Assembly (NCBI GenBank): GCA_028284235.1
Contig: JANQSC010000042.1
Span: 1 to 60,280 of the forward strand
From: Opitutaceae bacterium
GTDB lineage: Bacteria > Verrucomicrobiota > Verrucomicrobiia > Opitutales > Opitutaceae
Length of the DNA: 60,280 bases
Reading direction: 5' to 3'
Shown in pieces: positions 1 through 13,981 of the stretch. The notes beneath the pieces were generated by a model. That model saw only the letters and a list, made by a program, of their open reading frames with translations, did no database searches and was not told the origin of the DNA. Positions within the stretch are counted from its first letter, which is position 1, and the number at the start of each line of letters is the position of its first letter. Both the position numbers and the translations under genes were made by a program.

Positions 1-1494
1 GAATTCCCCATCACCGTCACCCCTTCGTCCAGCCGCAAAATCGGCGTGCGCGAACGGCAGCACAACAACCGCGACGCCGCCCGCCACACCTTCAAAGTCG
101 CCCGCGCTCAAGACCTGCCCATGGAAACGCCCGCCGTGTGGATCGACTGGCTCGAGTGGGAAGGCCCCATCCAAAACGAAAAGCTCAGCCGCTTTCACCA
201 GACACTATTCGATCGCGGGCCCGACGCCGTTCAAAGCGACGAATACGCTGGCGAAATTCTCCGCGCCTTCGCGACCCGAGCCTTCCGCACGCAAACGCCG
301 TCCGAATCGTTCCAAGAGAAGCTCATGAGCCTCTACCGGAATCGACGCGAGTCCGGCGACGACTTCAAAACCGCCCTCGTCGAACCCATGTCGGTCATCC
401 TCGCCTCGCCCGCATTCCTATACCTGAACGAACCGAAGCAAAGCGAAGACAAGCGCGAGCTCAACGACCTCGAACTCGCCGTCCGCCTTTCCTACTTCCT
501 TTGGAGCAGCCCGCCCGACGAGGAACTCTACGATGTGGCCCGAGCCGGAAAACTCAAAAACCCCATGGCCCTGGAAGCGCAGACCAACCGGATGCTGCAG
601 GACCCCAAAGCCTGGGAGTTCATCAGTTCGTTCACGAGCCAATGGCTCCACATGGACCGACTCAACTTCTTCCAGTTCAACTACGAACTGTATCCAGAAT
701 TTGATGATAGCGCCAAAGACGCTGCTCGCGACGAGATCTTCCACACCATCGAAACGCTCATCGACGAAAACCTGAGCATCGAGAACCTGCTCAAATCCGA
801 CTTCGTCGTCATCAACGACCTCCTCGCCGACTACTACGGCATCGAAGGCGTCACCGGCCGCCACTTCCGTAAAGTGCCCGTTCCTGCCGATTCACCTCGA
901 GGCGGACTCCTCGGAACCGCCGCCGTCCTGGCCATGGGCTCCGACGGCGAACGCACCTCGCCCGTGGAACGCGGCGCCTGGGTCATGCGGAAACTCCTCA
1001 ACGACCCACCGCCGCCCGCGCCGCCCAACGTGCCCCAGCTCAGTCGACTCGCCGAAGAAAAACTGCCCGCCCGCGAATTGCAAATCGCCCACATGGAAGA
1101 GCCGCAATGCGCCCAATGCCATCGCAAGATCGATCCGATCGGATACGGCCTCGAAAACTTCGACGCGGCCGGAAAATGGCGCCACAAGGAACGCATCCTT
1201 GCCACGAGCAAGAAAGACTCCGACGTCTGGGCCGCCATCGACCCTAGCGGAACCCTCCCCGACGAAACGCCCTTCGCCGACTACTACGAACTGCGCGACC
1301 GCATCGCCGAGCGGGGCGACGCCTTCGCCCGCGGCCTCACCGAAGCCCTCATCGCCTACGGTCTCGGACGCCCGTATGGATTTACCGACTACGACCTCGC
1401 CCAGTCGATCCTCGCCGACGCCGGGAGCGACGACTACCAAGCCCGCAGCTTCATCCACGCCCTCGTCCAATCCGAACAATTCAAACTTAAGTAA
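1..1494 (+). CDS. DUF1592/DUF1588/DUF1585 cytochrome-like protein, 5' truncated
   Basis: The reading frame is open from the first base of the window, so the N-terminus lies outside; the first internal ATG (46) is not a credible start. The visible 497 codons contain the C-terminal half of the large planctomycete/verrucomicrobial cytochrome family: the part with NDLELAVRLSYFLWSSPPD (DUF1592), the segment ending in SDGERTSPVERGAWV (DUF1588), and a C-terminal block with one c-type heme motif CAQCH followed by RKIDPIGYGLENFDAAGKWR (DUF1585). Such proteins are exported and thought to carry covalent heme; their substrate is unknown. A DUF1552 protein and a thioredoxin-like protein follow on the same strand, the same order as the intact homologue at 18077-20140. 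Family assignment is firm; function is not. Confidence 0.9.
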   Translation, partial: EFPITVTPSSSRKIGVRERQHNNRDAARHTFKVARAQDLPMETPAVWIDWLEWEGPIQNEKLSRFHQTLFDRGPDAVQSDEYAGEILRAFATRAFRTQTPSESFQEKLMSLYRNRRESGDDFKTALVEPMSVILASPAFLYLNEPKQSEDKRELNDLELAVRLSYFLWSSPPDEELYDVARAGKLKNPMALEAQTNRMLQDPKAWEFISSFTSQWLHMDRLNFFQFNYELYPEFDDSAKDAARDEIFHTIETLIDENLSIENLLKSDFVVINDLLADYYGIEGVTGRHFRKVPVPADSPRGGLLGTAAVLAMGSDGERTSPVERGAWVMRKLLNDPPPPAPPNVPQLSRLAEEKLPARELQIAHMEEPQCAQCHRKIDPIGYGLENFDAAGKWRHKERILATSKKDSDVWAAIDPSGTLPDETPFADYYELRDRIAERGDAFARGLTEALIAYGLGRPYGFTDYDLAQSILADAGSDDYQARSFIHALVQSEQFKLK

Positions 1495-1506
1495 CAATCA
1501 TACAAA

Positions 1507-1718
1507 ACGAATTAGCAGCGCTCGTGCCTCGCTAGACCCTTCGTCAAGACTCAGGCCAGGATCCCCGCTGAGGCGGGGCCAAGACTTTCAACGAAAATAC
1601 CTACTTATATATCTACCAACGAATTAACTTCGAAGAAATCCTGCCCCCGCCTCAGCGGGGATCCTGGCCCAGCACAGCTGGGATCTAGCGATCCCGCCTA
1701 GCGGGAGAGCGATGCTAA
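1507..1718. repeat. Modular palindromic element, paired 24-bp arms
   Basis: The gap between two CDSs is filled by a compound inverted repeat. Perfect 24-bp arms lie at 1555-1578 and 1645-1668. Outer ends are related inverted sequences (TTAGCAGCGCTC near 1512 and GAGCGATGCTAA near 1708). Inside the right half are further small hairpins such as CCCGCCTAGCGGG. The right half (1636-1715) is nearly the same as 7638-7709. No protein-coding signal is seen. Confidence 0.75.
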
Positions 1719-1743
1719 AAAACAAAACACAACATTTAGTCCT

Positions 1744-3042
1744 ATGAAGTTCCCTATAACAACCCGTCGATCTTTTCTCCGGAGCAGCACTGCCCTCGTG
1801 GCGCTCCCATTCCTCGAATCGCTCGGAGCGAAGGCCTTCGCCAAGGCGGCGCCGCTCGCGGCCGCTCCAAAGCGAATGGTCTTCCTCGGTTTCGGCTGGG
1901 GAGTGACCAAAGAATCCTGGTATCCAGATATCAATACAACGGGTACGAACTACGTCCTCCCTAAAGGACTGCAAGGATTGCAGCGACACAAGAAGGACAT
2001 CACAATCATCCAAAATCTGACCAACCAGTTTTCCAACGAAGCCCACTGGGGGAGCACGTTCTACCTGACCGGGGCCAACCGCTACGCAGAACCGGGCCAG
2101 AGTTTCTACAACAGTATCTCCGCCGACCAAGTCGCGGCAAAAACGCTCGGCAAAGAAACCCGTTTCACCTCGATCCAGCTCGGCTGCGAGAAGGCCGAGG
2201 ACTCCGGCCACGGGCCCGGGCTTTCCATGTCCTGGAACCAGCAAGGAAAACCCATCGCCGGGCTCAACACGCCCGTCGCCGCCTACCATAAACTCTTTTC
2301 CGACAGCGACACGCCTCTGGAGCAACGCCAGGCCATGCTCAAGCAAAAGCGCAGCGTGCTGGATACCGTGCTTGAAAACGCCGGCTCCATGAACGGCAAA
2401 CTCAGCAAGACCGACACGGACAAGCTCGACGAGTATTTCCAGTCGATTCGCGAAATCGAAGTCCGCCTTTCCAAAGAAGAGCAATGGCTCGACGTGCCGA
2501 AAAAGCAACCGACCGATTCCATCAACGAGCCGCAAGGCGACATCGAAGGCTACGAAGAGGTCAAACTGATGTACGACATCATGATCGCCGCCATGCAAGT
2601 CGACGCCACCCGCGTCATGACTTATCGCCAACCTGTGGATACATTTATTCGCAGCCTCGGAGCCACCATCACCGGCCACAATATGAGCCACTACACCAAC
2701 GGCTCGCGGCTCAGCGTATCCGAAATGCGCGACGAGAAACAAACCGAGCTTTTCGCCTATTTCATCGACCGCCTCAAAGCGTCGAAAGAAGCCGACGGCA
2801 CCAGCCTGTTCGACAGCGTCACGCTCAGTTACGGCAGCAACATCGAGTCGATCCACTACCTCAAGAATTGCCCGACCATCCTCACCGGTGGCGGAGCCGG
2901 AATCAACCACGGCCGACACCTCGTCATGGACGATCCCAAAACGCCCCTCTGCAACCTCTGGCTCAGCCTCTTGCAAGGGAACGGGATTTCCGTCGACGCC
3001 CACGGCGACAGCAACGGGACGATCAAAGAACTTTGGACCTAG
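1744..3042 (+). CDS. DUF1552 family protein, Tat-exported
   Basis: A 432-residue protein starting with a twin-arginine signal (RRSFLR at residues 8-13, then a hydrophobic stretch to about residue 32). The mature part matches DUF1552, with the recognisable FLGFGWG, GLNTPVAAYHKLF and SMNGKLSKTDTDKLDEYFQSIREIE segments and the late SYGSNIES and GGGAGINHGRH segments. DUF1552 proteins are almost always encoded next to DUF1592/1588/1585 cytochromes, as here, and are presumed to work with them outside the cytoplasm. No enzymatic activity is established. The Tat signal suggests folding, perhaps with a cofactor, before export. A REP-like hairpin begins just after the stop. Confidence 0.9.
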   Translation: MKFPITTRRSFLRSSTALVALPFLESLGAKAFAKAAPLAAAPKRMVFLGFGWGVTKESWYPDINTTGTNYVLPKGLQGLQRHKKDITIIQNLTNQFSNEAHWGSTFYLTGANRYAEPGQSFYNSISADQVAAKTLGKETRFTSIQLGCEKAEDSGHGPGLSMSWNQQGKPIAGLNTPVAAYHKLFSDSDTPLEQRQAMLKQKRSVLDTVLENAGSMNGKLSKTDTDKLDEYFQSIREIEVRLSKEEQWLDVPKKQPTDSINEPQGDIEGYEEVKLMYDIMIAAMQVDATRVMTYRQPVDTFIRSLGATITGHNMSHYTNGSRLSVSEMRDEKQTELFAYFIDRLKASKEADGTSLFDSVTLSYGSNIESIHYLKNCPTILTGGGAGINHGRHLVMDDPKTPLCNLWLSLLQGNGISVDAHGDSNGTIKELWT

Positions 3043-3045
3043 AAA

Positions 3046-3113
3046 AACGCGCCGGGACGGCGCGTTCCACCCCATCATCAAAAATCAGGTGGAACCCGAC
3101 GTCCCGGCGGGTT
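3046..3113. repeat. REP-like double hairpin, two inverted units
   Basis: Two inverted 26-bp units (3046-3071 and 3088-3113) lie between the DUF1552 stop and the next start. Each unit is itself a hairpin. The left unit has AACGCG...CGCGTT flanks and the right has AACCCG...CGGGTT, so both sides of the stem have changed together. Related copies are at 16054, 27801, 30041, 39166 and 54235. Confidence 0.8.
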
Positions 3114-3124
3114 CTGATCAACCT

Positions 3125-4315
3125 ATGAATACCTTCAAAGCACTCGGGCTCACGGGAGCCTTCACTCTCGCTTTTCTTTCCACCGTCCTCGCAGTAAACC
3201 CCAAGGGCCTTCCGGACGGATTCACCACGCTTGAGATTGGCGACGCCGCTCCAGACTTCACCTTGCCAGGAATCGACGGCAAGGATTACTCTCTCTCCGA
3301 TTTCGACGGGCCCGAGATTTTCGTCGTCTACTTCACCGGCACCCACTGCCCGACTTCGCACGGAGCCATGGGCCGCATGCTCCAGTTCGTCGAAGACTAC
3401 GCCGACAAAATGGCCTTCGTCGCCATCAATCCTAACCACTCTTCCGGGCTCCGGCCCGACGAGTTTGGCCACACCGACTACGACGAGACGTTCGCCGATT
3501 CCAAACGCTACGCCGAGGACTACAACTGGTCCTTCCCCTTCCTCTACGACGGCGACAAGCAAGAAGTCGCCCGCGCCTACGGCTGCCTCGCCACGCCCCA
3601 CGTCCTCATTTTCGACAAGGACCGAAAACTCCGCTACAACGGACGCTTCGACGACTCCCGCTTCCCCGACCCCGCTACGGTCAAACACCCCGACGCCCGC
3701 AACGCCGTCGACGCCCTCCTGGCCGGAAACCCCGTTCCCGTCGAAACCACTCGCCCGCACGGCTGCTCGACCAAATGGAAAGAGCGCAGCCTCCACGTCA
3801 TGGAAGAAGAACGCCAATGGCAGGCCTTCGAAGCCACCATCGAGGACATCGACGCCGCAGGAGTCGCCGCCCTTCGCACCAACGGCACTGACAAGCTGCG
3901 CCTAATCAACGTCTGGGCCACCTGGTGCGTCCCCTGTGTCGAGGAATTTCCCGACCTCACAGCCATCGCCCGCAAGTTCAGCCGACGCGAATTCGAGCTC
4001 ATCACCATCAGCCTCGACCAGCCCAGCCAAAAGGCGCGGGCCAAGGCATTTCTCGGCAAACACCGAGCTGTCATGAGCGACAAACTACGCAAAACCGTCG
4101 AAGCGGAAGGACGGACCACGAACAACTACCTTTATACCGGCGCCAGCGTGGACGCCCTCGCCGAAGCACTCGACCCCGAATGGCCCGGCCCCGTGCCCTA
4201 TTCGATCCTCGTCGACCAGGAAGGCAACGTCCTCTACCGCAAACTCGGCAAGATCGACCCCGACGTCGTGCGTAACAAGATTCTCGATACGCTTACACGC
4301 CACTACGTGCAGTAG
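3125..4315 (+). CDS. Exported protein with two thioredoxin-like domains
   Basis: A 396-residue protein; the ATG at 3125 is preferred because it begins a signal peptide (hydrophobic residues 8-24), whereas the frame upstream runs through the repeat. Domain 1 (about residues 38-195) is redoxin-like, with TGTHCPTSH: Cys75 is kept but the second position of a CxxC motif is Ser. Domain 2 (about 225-390) is TlpA-like with WATWCVPC, giving Cys268 and Cys271. It probably performs thiol-disulfide exchange in the periplasm, possibly for heme-protein maturation of the neighbouring CxxCH cytochrome. That partner role is inferred from position only. Confidence 0.82.
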   Translation: MNTFKALGLTGAFTLAFLSTVLAVNPKGLPDGFTTLEIGDAAPDFTLPGIDGKDYSLSDFDGPEIFVVYFTGTHCPTSHGAMGRMLQFVEDYADKMAFVAINPNHSSGLRPDEFGHTDYDETFADSKRYAEDYNWSFPFLYDGDKQEVARAYGCLATPHVLIFDKDRKLRYNGRFDDSRFPDPATVKHPDARNAVDALLAGNPVPVETTRPHGCSTKWKERSLHVMEEERQWQAFEATIEDIDAAGVAALRTNGTDKLRLINVWATWCVPCVEEFPDLTAIARKFSRREFELITISLDQPSQKARAKAFLGKHRAVMSDKLRKTVEAEGRTTNNYLYTGASVDALAEALDPEWPGPVPYSILVDQEGNVLYRKLGKIDPDVVRNKILDTLTRHYVQ

Positions 4316-4355
4316 GGACAGGACGATTCGGTGGCGGGGAACAGGATTTCATTTA

Positions 4356-4536
4356 TGTCACCGCTCGTTCCTCGCTAGGATCCGCTACGTCGGTGACTAC
4401 GCGGAACTAAGGATGCCTCCCTCCGTTCGGCAAATAAAGTCCTTTGACCAAAGGAAAGTAACCTTATTTCCCCGACGTGTCGGGGATCCTTATTGGCTCG
4501 CGCAAGCGAGACTCCTAGGCCGAAGGCCGGTGACAA
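4356..4536. repeat. ~185-bp palindromic element, copy 1 of 3
   Basis: First of three close copies (others 4974-5161 and 5794-5978). Ends are inverted: TGTCACCG at the left and CGGTGACA at the right. Internal hairpins include CCCCGACGTGTCGGGG, CTCGCGCAAGCGAG, GGCCGAAGGCC and a nested stem around CCTTTGACCAAAGG. The third module (CTCGCGCAAGCGAG) differs from the CCCCGCTACGCGGGG of copies 2 and 3 but keeps a stem. It lies between the thioredoxin gene and a small lipoprotein gene. Confidence 0.85.
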
Positions 4537-4552
4537 CCAATCCGACTGCACT

Positions 4553-4882
4553 TTAAACCGTCAGCTCCTTTTTCTCCCAAACGAACCAGTAGGGATAGAC
4601 ATACACCCAATAACCGGGGGACAGATTCTGAATTCCTTCGTACTCTGTACCATTCCAACGACCCCAGTCCCGAAATTCACCAAACTCCTCCCGATCTTTG
4701 GGAACGTGCAGAACATGGAGTAAAACCGAGTACCTTCCGCCCACCGACGCCTTCGCCTCAAGGTCCTTCGAGTCTTGTATACTCTCAGTGGATACCTCTT
4801 TTACCGAATTCGAGCACGCGGTAAAAAATGTGAAACACACCAGTCCGAACAAAAACGAGAGCGGAACTTTACGATAACTCAT
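4553..4882 (-). CDS. Small hypothetical lipoprotein
   Basis: A 109-residue product with a lipoprotein signal: basic start MSYRK, hydrophobic core, lipobox FTAC with Cys23. The mature part is short and rich in aromatic residues toward the C-terminus (GYWVYVYPYWFVW). No family is recognised. It is framed by two copies of the ~185-bp element, on the same strand as the next few genes. The gene is believable because of the clean signal sequence, but function is unknown. Confidence 0.65.
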   Translation of the reverse strand: MSYRKVPLSFLFGLVCFTFFTACSNSVKEVSTESIQDSKDLEAKASVGGRYSVLLHVLHVPKDREEFGEFRDWGRWNGTEYEGIQNLSPGYWVYVYPYWFVWEKKELTV

Positions 4883-4973
4883 GGTAAGATCATTTATTCA
4901 GCTTGAGGGCAGTCTCTATTGAGCCCCCTAGGTCCAAAACTACGATCAAATCTGGTCAACGTTCAATGCCGAT

Positions 4974-5161
4974 TTTTGTCACCGCTCGTTTCCTCGCTAG
5001 GATCCGCTACGTCGGTGACTTCGCGGAACTAAGGATGCCTCTCTCCGTTCGGCAAATAAGGTCCTTTGACCAAAGGAAATTAACCTTATTTCCCCGACGT
5101 GTCGGGGATCCTTATTGGCCCCGCTACGCGGGGACTCCTAGGCCGCAGGCCGATGACAAAA
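4974..5161. repeat. ~185-bp palindromic element, copy 2 of 3
   Basis: Terminal inverted repeats TTTTGTCACCG and CGATGACAAAA bound the element. Internal stems are AAATAAGGT/ACCTTATTT enclosing CCTTTGACCAAAGG, then CCCCGACGTGTCGGGG, CCCCGCTACGCGGGG and GGCCGCAGGCC. An open frame across it is a repeat artefact, because the same peptide recurs in copy 3. Confidence 0.87.
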
Positions 5162-5793: not shown

Positions 5794-5978
5794 TTTGTCA
5801 CCGCTCGTTCCTCGCTAGGATCCGCTACGTCCGTGCCTTCGCGGAACTAAGGATGCCTCTCTCCGTTCGGCAAATAAGGTTTATTGACCAAAGGAAATTC
5901 ACCTTACTTCCCCGACGTGTCGGGGATCCTTATTGGCCCCGCTACGCGGGGACTCCTAGGCCGAAGGCCGATGACAAA
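5794..5978. repeat. ~185-bp palindromic element, copy 3 of 3
   Basis: Ends are TTTGTCACCG and CGATGACAAA. Order and sequence of the internal stems match copy 2, with scattered changes. It is followed after about 30 bp by a shorter palindromic element, so the 375-bp gap 5723-6097 is almost all repeat and holds no gene. Confidence 0.87.
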
Positions 5979-11684: not shown

Positions 11685-12305
11685 TCAACTTATCAGAATC
11701 TTCATCACCGCATCGTCGATGAAAGAGCTTCGTTTTCCTCTAATCAGTCCGGCTCTTGCGCGCAGGGCTAGACTATGAAGGAGAGCTGCGGCTATTCGAG
11801 CCAGACTCTTAGTTCGATGCAATTCCAGTTGGCCGTCTTTCACAGCCTGTTCGAATCGTTCTTCGAGCATTTGCTCGACTCGTTCGATAGCTGCCGCCAG
11901 ATCCGAACGAATTTCATCGTCTGTCGGTGCCTCAATGACCGCAGTGCACAGAGTGGGGCAGCCGAGCGCGTTGCCGGAGTCGCCTTGATATTCGGATAAA
12001 GCTACTGCATAGAATTTTTTGAGGTCCTTTTCAAGTGACTCGCCTGCGAAAAGCGCATTCTGAAGACGAATAAAGAAAGTCTTGTTGAATGCGGAAATAG
12101 CCTTCCTGTACATCGACTTCTTGTTTCCGAACGCTGAATACAGACTCGGCCGGTTCATATGAGTTGCGAGACTGATTTCGTCCAAGCTCGTTGCTGAGAA
12201 ACCTCGGCGCAAAAAGACTCTGAGGGCGGCATTGAGGGCCTGCGCTTCGTTGTAAGCTCGAGGACGCCCGCGTTTCTTTTTCGGTAAATTTGTATCGGTT
12301 CGCAT
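11685..12305 (-). CDS. TetR/AcrR family transcriptional regulator
   Basis: A 206-residue protein from the ATG at 12305, chosen because MRTDTNLPKKKRGRPRAYNE is a usual start for this family; the frame extends to 12386 but would include the promoter region. The N-terminal DNA-binding domain runs from about residue 12 to 65 (RRGFSATSLDEISLATHMNR, then PSLYSAFGNKKSMYRKAI). The C-terminal ligand domain resembles the AefR-like group. It is divergent from the lipoyl-KASIII fusion gene and upstream of the ClbS/DfsB-like gene, and probably represses one or both. Confidence 0.87.
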   Translation of the reverse strand: MRTDTNLPKKKRGRPRAYNEAQALNAALRVFLRRGFSATSLDEISLATHMNRPSLYSAFGNKKSMYRKAISAFNKTFFIRLQNALFAGESLEKDLKKFYAVALSEYQGDSGNALGCPTLCTAVIEAPTDDEIRSDLAAAIERVEQMLEERFEQAVKDGQLELHRTKSLARIAAALLHSLALRARAGLIRGKRSSFIDDAVMKILIS

Positions 12306-12352
12306 AAAAATATTGACTGAGTTAGAGAAGTCTTCGTTGTTTTTGTTCGAAA

Positions 12353-12368
12353 CAGTACAAAATACTTG
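12353..12368. promoter_or_regulatory. Candidate TetR operator in divergent promoter region
   Basis: CAGTACAAAATACTTG is a near-palindrome (CAGTA/TACTtG) in the 98-bp space between tetR (start 12305) and the divergent fusion gene (start 12404). Location fits autorepression plus control of the divergent gene. It is a visual call only. Confidence 0.35.
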
Positions 12369-12403
12369 CGAATAAAAGTAGGTCAATTGCCATCTTCACT
12401 TCC

Positions 12404-13981
12404 GTGTTGTTTTGGCTAACCCATTCTAGCTACTTGAAAACAGCATTCTTCGAGATAGACGTCCCAGTCCCCTCCATGGGAGCTACCGTTAGTGAAATGA
12501 CAGTCATCGATTTGCGAATCGAGGTCGCCCAGCGAGTAGCGAAGGGGGAGGTGCTTGCCGAGCTTGAGAGCGACAAATCAGTATTCGAGCTCGAAGCGCC
12601 CTGCGACGGCAAGATAAGTCATATATTCGGGGGAGCGGGCGAAATTCTATCGGTGGGATCGCCTTTCGTGCGTATAGAGACACTTGATACGTCTATGCTG
12701 CATTTGAAGGCCTTAGCGAGTGAATCCGTAACGTCCTCTGAGGAAATTGTTGAAGAGTCTCCGCTATCTCTTCGACCTCCTGCAAGCCCGGTATCTAAAC
12801 TGACGCCGAAGGCCCGAAAACTAGCTGAAGTTAGTGGGGTCAGTATGGAGGCGATTCACGAGATCGAAGGCACTGGTCCGGGTGGTCGCGTCACAGGAGA
12901 CGATCTTGCATTGCTTCTTGAGAGGACTGATGCAGGCCAAAAAGTGGCTTCGCGCGAGGGCAACGGAGCCTTGAGAAGGAACTCATCCGCTTTGGAAACG
13001 GAAACGGTTTGCGTTTCGGGAATTGGCTATTCGGTTCCTCAACGTATTCTCTCTAACGATGAGATTCGAAAAAATGTCCGGGGCGAGAATTCGGAAGACC
13101 CTGTCAGACTGACTGGTATTCGGCAGCGTTACGTCATCGGCGCGGGCGAGTCTGTAACCAGTTTAGGACTTCACGCTTCCAACAAGGCTTTGGCGGCAGC
13201 GAGCTTAAGAGCTCGTGATATCGACGCTATTATCGTGGCGACCGTTCTAGCGGACGAACCGATCCCGGGAGCTGCGAGCGATCTAGCGAATGCCCTGGGA
13301 TTAGGCGAAGCCTTGGCATTCGACTTGAACGCGGCGTGTTCGGGTTGGCTCTACGCCCTCGAAGTGGGGCGTTCTTTTATTCTCGCAGGCACGGCTCGCA
13401 ATGTTCTGGTTGTGACTGCGGAGGCCCCATCCCGGATCACGAACAAGGAAGATCCGGATACGGCCTTTCTTTTTGGGGATGGGGCAGGCGCGGCCGTACT
13501 GACACGAGATACTGGAGGTCACCGTCTTCATCGCCATCAACTCAGCGGCGACTCTCGATTCGCCCACGCTATCCGTCGCCAGGGAGGTGGAGCGTTGCAA
13601 CCGGTTCCGCTCTCTGAGGAAAATCTGGACGACTTCTACATGAAGATGGATGGAGGACTCATTTTCAAGAAAGCGACCATCGCTTTTTCGAACATTATCG
13701 ATGAAACCTTAGAACGCCATGGGCTGACTTCAGGTGATGTGTCGTGGGTCGTTCCGCATCAAGCGAATGCTCGGATCCTGAAGGCGGTGAGCAAACGCGT
13801 TGGCATCGCTTACGATCGATTTGTCGTCACGGTCGATCGATTTGGTAATACGTCTGCAGCGTCTGTGGCGATGGCTCTCGCTTGGGCAGCAGAGGAGGGG
13901 CTCTTTGAGAAAGGGGATAAGATAGTACTGTGTTCGGTGGGTGGCGGCTTGACCTATGCCGCTGGCCTAATGGTCTGGTAA
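12404..13981 (+). CDS. Lipoyl domain - E3-binding domain - ketoacyl synthase III fusion
   Basis: A 525-residue protein from a GTG start (the ATG at 12476 would cut into the lipoyl domain). Residues about 17-92 are a lipoyl domain with the modified lysine in LESDKS (Lys58). Residues about 132-171 form a peripheral subunit-binding domain (LTPKARKLAEVSGV...GPGGRVTGDDL) as in E2 of 2-oxoacid dehydrogenases. Instead of the E2 acyltransferase core, residues about 201-525 are a full KASIII/FabH domain with the triad Cys312 (NAACSG), His452 (VPHQAN) and Asn482 (FGNTSA). Lipoyl and FabH families are well known; the idea that an acyl-lipoyl arm loads KASIII directly is inference. No E1 or E3 gene is nearby. 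TetR is divergent. Confidence 0.9.
   Translation: MLFWLTHSSYLKTAFFEIDVPVPSMGATVSEMTVIDLRIEVAQRVAKGEVLAELESDKSVFELEAPCDGKISHIFGGAGEILSVGSPFVRIETLDTSMLHLKALASESVTSSEEIVEESPLSLRPPASPVSKLTPKARKLAEVSGVSMEAIHEIEGTGPGGRVTGDDLALLLERTDAGQKVASREGNGALRRNSSALETETVCVSGIGYSVPQRILSNDEIRKNVRGENSEDPVRLTGIRQRYVIGAGESVTSLGLHASNKALAAASLRARDIDAIIVATVLADEPIPGAASDLANALGLGEALAFDLNAACSGWLYALEVGRSFILAGTARNVLVVTAEAPSRITNKEDPDTAFLFGDGAGAAVLTRDTGGHRLHRHQLSGDSRFAHAIRRQGGGALQPVPLSEENLDDFYMKMDGGLIFKKATIAFSNIIDETLERHGLTSGDVSWVVPHQANARILKAVSKRVGIAYDRFVVTVDRFGNTSAASVAMALAWAAEEGLFEKGDKIVLCSVGGGLTYAAGLMVW

Follow-up and report, generated by a model that had tools for sequence, protein, structure and literature searches.

A lipoyl and E3-binding domain fusion to ketoacyl synthase III in Opitutaceae and its probable role in a third 2-oxoacid dehydrogenase complex

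What could a lipoyl arm do in front of a ketoacyl synthase? The question is raised by a single gene in the window, that is, the whole 60,280-nucleotide stretch of an Opitutaceae contig that was analyzed here. The answer that we consider probable is that the gene product belongs to a third 2-oxoacid dehydrogenase complex, which has β-ketoacyl-ACP synthase III (KAS III) in place of the E2 acyltransferase core and primes branched fatty acids from acyl-lipoamide. In a more specific form, which we favor with somewhat less confidence, E1, the lipoyl arm, E3 and KAS III would make up a CoA-free condensing complex that turns a branched 2-oxoacid and malonyl-ACP into branched 3-oxoacyl-ACP. It would represent a core lipid-priming route in the Opitutaceae group, occurring in two domain arrangements in the order.

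Domain architecture of the fusion

The gene occupies positions 12404..13981 of the forward strand, on which all the features of the fusion given below also lie, and consists of a single frame of 525 codons plus a stop. The initial annotation had read this frame as lipoyl and E3-binding domains followed by KAS III. Domain mapping bears this out, with four Pfam matches, all above the curated cut-offs. The lipoyl domain (Biotin_lipoyl, PF00364; 48.6 bits, 7.5e-13) covers residues 19-91 (12458..12676), and the peripheral subunit (E3) binding domain (E3_binding, PF02817; 32.4 bits for a cut-off of 23.7, 1.1e-7) covers residues 132-168 (12797..12907). The two remaining matches, ACP_syn_III (residues 306-379, 1e-24) and ACP_syn_III_C (residues 436-525, 1.3e-30), fall within the KAS III part (residues 201-525, 13004..13978), which scores 307.9 bits with the NCBIfam model of beta-ketoacyl-ACP synthase 3 (PRK09352, NF006829; cut-off 249). 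The solved chains that match the fusion (60 shown of 86) are all KAS III or KAS III-like and align from about residue 180 onward. The real start is perhaps TTG at 12434 and not GTG at 12404, because in an 11-row alignment the relatives start some 14 residues ahead of the end of PSMG.

The residues proposed as functional from the sequence of the window protein hold up as well. Lys58 in ESDKS (12575..12577), the expected lipoylation site, and three KAS III residues identified by alignments and a residue table, namely the nucleophile Cys312 (E. coli Cys112; 13337..13339), His452 (E. coli His244; 13757..13759) and Asn482 (E. coli Asn274; 13847..13849), are invariant in both the 11-row and a 44-row alignment, as is TGP of the E3-binding domain. 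The window protein is counted among the rows of both alignments.

The fusion resembles an E2 dihydrolipoyl acyltransferase in having N-terminal lipoyl and E3-binding domains in the same order and in a co-occurring E1 (see below). In contrast to E2, it carries KAS III instead of the C-terminal acyltransferase domain (PF00198, 2-oxoacid_dh), for which Pfam gave no match in the window fusion at E-values up to 0.001. Because the acyltransferase is missing, we rate the protein as E2-like in its predicted working and not as a member of E2.

Genomic distribution and the accompanying E1

A search for the same architecture in other genomes was successful. This KAS III is present in 85 of 120 genomes of family f1, which we take, from the named loci, to be the Opitutaceae/Pelagicoccus group of Verrucomicrobiota. 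According to tallies read from the result tables for the 120 genomes, it shares one frame with the arm (the lipoyl/E3-binding part) in 52 of the 85, is encoded separately from it in 30 and is truncated in 3. The genes of the split pairs are adjacent in 28 cases and lie on different contigs in two (G349, G378). The 35 genomes that lack it divide into 23 with a stand-alone arm and 12 with no arm; the latter include G021, in which a KAS III fragment at a contig end was counted as absence. When 57 relatives were searched, matches far stronger than ordinary FabH occurred in f1 and in one genome of family f8 (G043), and across 288 genomes of the phylum matches at E 1e-110 or better were confined to f1, the next best being 1.6e-72. 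The best 80 of 567 named loci include Pelagicoccus, strain DG1235, Ereboglobus and many Opitutales assemblies, as well as Geminisphaera, represented by the KAS III part only, at a contig end. Four assemblies that carry the locus (L178, L188, L231, L182) are titled Akkermansia muciniphila (three) or Candidatus Sumerlaeota (one), and these titles look misassigned.

This recurrence clears the doubt whether the frame arose by an assembly join or a frameshift between two unrelated genes. The two parts are indeed separate genes in 30 of the 120 genomes, but one open frame is found in 52 of the 85, single-contig assemblies included, and the fusion is also present in named isolates, among them Pelagicoccus sp. 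and Ereboglobus sp. We therefore rejected an artefact, to which we assign a negligible probability.

Gene neighborhoods of the arm are partly conserved. In all nine stand-alone arm loci, pyrG, kdsA and the arm occur together, sometimes with other frames between them, and rsmE lies near the arm in seven (the names of neighbors at arm loci were confirmed on relatives). Genes for KDO/LPS are found nearby, which we count in favor of the proposed complex: kdsA adjoins the arm in some members of the family, and kdsC is next to the E1 of the source genome (G000), with lptB further on.

No E1 or E2 gene apart from the fusion itself was detected when the window was searched by tblastn with a single query of each. 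An E1, for which the initial annotation had proposed to look, is encoded elsewhere in the genome: a third E1 of about 690 residues with fused alpha and beta parts, present in 110 of the 120 genomes. It tracks the arm. In the 96 of 120 genomes with a completeness of at least 90% and no more than 5% contamination (hereafter good genomes), both are present in 89, neither in 6, E1 alone in one (G354) and the arm alone in none. These data amount to far fewer than 96 independent observations, because the joint absence comes down to three genera plus a single member of another (g50). The 24 genomes below the quality limits include three with the arm and no E1 (G335, G388, G399) and five with E1 and no arm (G021, G024, G337, G377, G382). 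The E1 gene is not adjacent to the arm: its distance from the main fusion copy is 10-18 kb in G000, G001, G002 and G006, and in G014 and G023 the arm is hundreds of kb away.

Among solved chains, this E1 is best matched by the 2-oxoacid and branched-chain (2-oxoisovalerate) E1 beta chains of Thermus, followed closely by beta chains of pyruvate E1. The best NCBIfam matches are pyruvate E1 models, all below their cut-offs, which counts against a branched-chain substrate. Branched-chain specificity is likely and no firmer, because the solved matches include 2-oxoisovalerate E1 but NCBIfam puts pyruvate E1 first.

Of the 85 genomes that have this KAS III, 79 contain at most two PF00198 genes, with none to spare for the third E1; the two in the source genome are those of PDH and OGDH. 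Neither G043 nor G364 has any PF00198 gene, and both keep E1, arm, KAS III and lipA; an E3 above the cut-off is present in G043, and none was found in G364, a fragmented assembly. A third PF00198 gene occurs in four more of the 85 (G356, G360, G361, G379).

The genomes without the arm and E1 pair show what may stand in for it. All six good genomes of this kind have an open frame of 1048-1131 residues with an acyltransferase domain, and Pfam, applied to three of them (G072, G019, G318), revealed E1, lipoyl and acyltransferase domains in one chain. Single-chain proteins of this type (1042-1076 residues) were located at L250:2740-5868, L251:2806-6036, L252:2985-6170 and L253:2775-5927, and no match to the E3-binding domain was found in them. 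The chain of Opitutales (L250, L252) is like the new system in its alpha-beta-fused E1 and lipoyl domain, and in pair-less genomes it perhaps has the same role; in contrast, it ends in an acyltransferase that would make acyl-CoA. One of the carriers, G318, is presumed to be Lacunisphaera limnophila, which lacks the lipoyl-KAS III system and is nevertheless described as containing 48.6% iso-C15:0 (PMC5303756). The system is thus not the only route to branched fatty acids, and we rejected it as their sole source. Since the three pair-less genomes read with Pfam carry the classic chain and one of them, the presumed L. limnophila, has iso-C15:0, this chain may be equivalent in its role to the new system.

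The two systems overlap to some extent. Both occur in G016 and G031 (split KAS III together with a long acyltransferase frame). Long frames with an acyltransferase domain (at least 1034 residues) were found in 10 of 16 checked genomes with a stand-alone arm and in none of 8 checked genomes with this KAS III. Evidence against our preferred explanation comes from the 23 of 120 genomes in which E1 and a stand-alone arm are present but this KAS III is not. Six of the 16 checked also lack the long frame, so another acceptor must exist in them; one, G341, has a third separate acyltransferase gene. Ordinary FabH may serve the genomes with a stand-alone arm, and the FabH proteins of three of them (G128, G214, G025) keep the CoA site.

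A different arrangement was found in family f20. Five genomes from two genera have a chain that matches E1-lipoyl-KAS III along its length (L097:8285-11671; also G499, G272, G208, G439). Its domains, read in one genome (G055), are E1alpha, E1beta, lipoyl and KAS III. The chain is perhaps an acyltransferase chain with its last domain exchanged.

The CoA site and the acyl donor

A comparison of Yersinia FabH with CoA-bound E. coli FabH (PMC4606726) describes Trp32 and Arg151 as sandwiching the CoA adenine and Arg36 as touching pantetheine. In the window copy, Trp32, Arg36 and Arg151 are replaced by Asp, Leu and Pro, respectively. All three are replaced in 33 of 33 rows from fusion or split KAS III; these represent 32 distinct loci (L033 repeats L011) and were picked by motif from L001-L036, L156 and L157, only loci with a frame showing the motif being counted. 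The three residues are likewise kept in none of the best 80 of 567 named loci (79 distinct rows, one gap at position 32) and in none of the five f20 chains. Ordinary FabH proteins, in contrast, keep Trp32 in 30 of 30, Arg36 in 29 of 30 and Arg151 in 30 of 30 cases; ten of these controls come from the order, five of them from genomes that also encode a fused or split KAS III, and 20 from the rest of the phylum. The catalytic Cys, His and Asn as well as Arg249 are kept in every one of these rows. In the best 80 of 567 loci, Arg249 is kept in 80 and Lys214 in 77; we take these two residues to face ACP. At position 87, where E. coli FabH has a Phe that limits the use of branched primers, the fusions have Val or Ile.

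Overall, the protein is a full-length KAS III by its Cys-His-Asn triad, the retention of Arg249 and nearly always Lys214, and its score above the PRK09352 cut-off. It differs from FabH in the three lost residues, in position 87 and in the lipoyl and E3-binding domains in front or next door. The CoA site may have been lost once or twice in the fusion and f20 synthases, an unrooted three-clade tree fitting either. An earlier tree had given the f20 row a branch of about 7-8, and this row was not taken from that tree.

In the complex that we propose, the alpha-beta-fused E1, encoded elsewhere, would decarboxylate a 2-oxoacid, probably one derived from leucine, isoleucine or valine, and acylate the lipoyl group on Lys58. 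From the arm, the acyl group would then pass to Cys312 in the attached KAS III, which would condense it with malonyl-ACP and release branched 3-oxoacyl-ACP into fatty-acid elongation. E3, held by the binding domain, would reoxidize the arm, and free acyl-CoA would be bypassed. The initial annotation had already suggested loading of the arm by an E1 and passage of the acyl group to KAS III without free acyl-CoA. This suggestion has gained genomic support of four kinds: the arm co-occurs with a third E1 for which no acyltransferase gene is spare, all six good pair-less genomes have a long frame with an acyltransferase domain, another family has an E1-lipoyl-KAS III chain of its own, and the CoA-binding residues are lost. 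The domains, catalytic residues, CoA-site loss, co-occurrence and replacement pattern are all read from sequences; what they suggest is lipoylation, E3 docking, direct transfer, the substrate, the product and the mode of regulation. Nothing was seen in favor of a polyketide-like product, which had also been considered.

According to the standard account (PMC6461809), branched-chain acyl-CoA derived from 2-oxoacids is the primer that FabH condenses with malonyl-ACP. Here, with both enzymes linked and the CoA-site residues missing from the synthase, the lipoyl group would be the direct acyl donor for a Claisen-condensing enzyme. It might be argued that the arm is only a scaffold or channel, the acyltransferase core of another complex (PDH or OGDH) moving the acyl group to CoA and KAS III using acyl-CoA as ordinary FabH does. 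Consistent with this, at least one PF00198 gene is present in 116 of the 120 family genomes, and the arm occurs without this KAS III in 23. We consider such a detour through CoA unlikely, as the CoA-binding residues are lost in all copies examined but kept by the ordinary FabH of both the order and the phylum, and G043 and G364 have no PF00198 gene that could provide the core.

The loss of the CoA site also fits ACP donors, as does the retention of Arg249 and Lys214. KAS III might then be loaded from acyl-ACP, or might be a KS III-like acyltransferase, as ChlB3 is reportedly called, with the lipoyl arm as a sensor or remnant. The invariance of Lys58 and the conservation of the E3-binding domain speak against an idle arm, as do its tracking of E1 across the family genomes and the joining of E1, lipoyl and KAS III in one chain by a second family; this explanation seems to us quite improbable.

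The nearest published function to the direct transfer that we favor is that of Photorhabdus BkdABC, a branched-chain 2-oxoacid dehydrogenase, compared here by description only. The complex is reported to provide a branched 3-oxoacyl thioester, 5-methyl-3-oxohexanoyl, and iso-fatty acids (PMC4578411, PMC4901931, PMC3838401). BkdB is described with an ACP domain, whereas none is found among the Pfam matches of the fusion or the third E1. Among the matches listed in the open-access literature, we found no paper on a lipoyl-KAS III fusion, which leaves its absence from print unproven. If true, the proposed mechanism would change the view of how branched membrane lipids are started in a widespread bacterial family, explain E1 genes without E2, and provide engineered cells with a compact component for the production of branched fatty acids. 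The occurrence of fused, split, single-chain and classic versions among related genomes makes direct transfer accessible to a direct test.

The window copy and its neighborhood

The window copy is one of two in the source genome, the only one among the 120 with two copies. The other copy (C34, L021) shares 60% identity with it and is located between pyrG and rsmE. The trees place the window copy on a long branch beside that of G018, a member of another genus, inside the group that holds its own genus. Its E3-binding domain scores 32.4 bits versus 46.3 in the second copy, which counts against our preferred explanation. Its GC3 is 0.536 versus 0.740. It looks like a divergent extra paralogue and has perhaps moved between close relatives.

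As noted from the outset, the fusion is flanked by genes for a TetR-type regulator and a ClbS/DfsB-type protein. The regulator (11685..12386, reverse strand; PF00440, TetR_N, 1.4e-10) is divergent from the fusion and starts at ATG 12305 or TTG 12386; the second neighbor matches DUF1706 (6.6e-50), which we take to be the ClbS/DfsB family. Their GC contents are 0.48 and 0.46, respectively. Neither was seen beside the other copies examined, and a special role of the two was rejected on this ground. For the window copy itself, control by the neighboring TetR is probable, and an imperfect palindrome between the two genes (12337..12360; 73% complementary) is a candidate operator.

These features bear on a further alternative, in which the product is not membrane branched-chain fatty acids but a special lipid or a signal, at any rate in the case of the window paralogue, which has a TetR of its own. 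The adjoining regulator, the long branch, the lower GC3 and the status of the source genome as the sole one with two copies would all fit. However, the main copy resides in a conserved neighborhood with pyrG and rsmE, and no biosynthetic cluster was noticed in the frame lists of the window (one of which comprises frames of at least 350 residues; most of positions 1-5000 lies outside the lists). We regard a special product as possible but doubtful and retain the priming of branched fatty acids as the preferred reading.

Two other features of the window were recorded. Three direct copies of a 171-nt repeat are located at 4368-4538, 4990-5160 and 5808-5978, with 81% and 95% identity to the reference copy. 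Many sulfatase-like frames are spread over 16157-54210; the three checked with Pfam match PF00884, and the others were recognized by eye.
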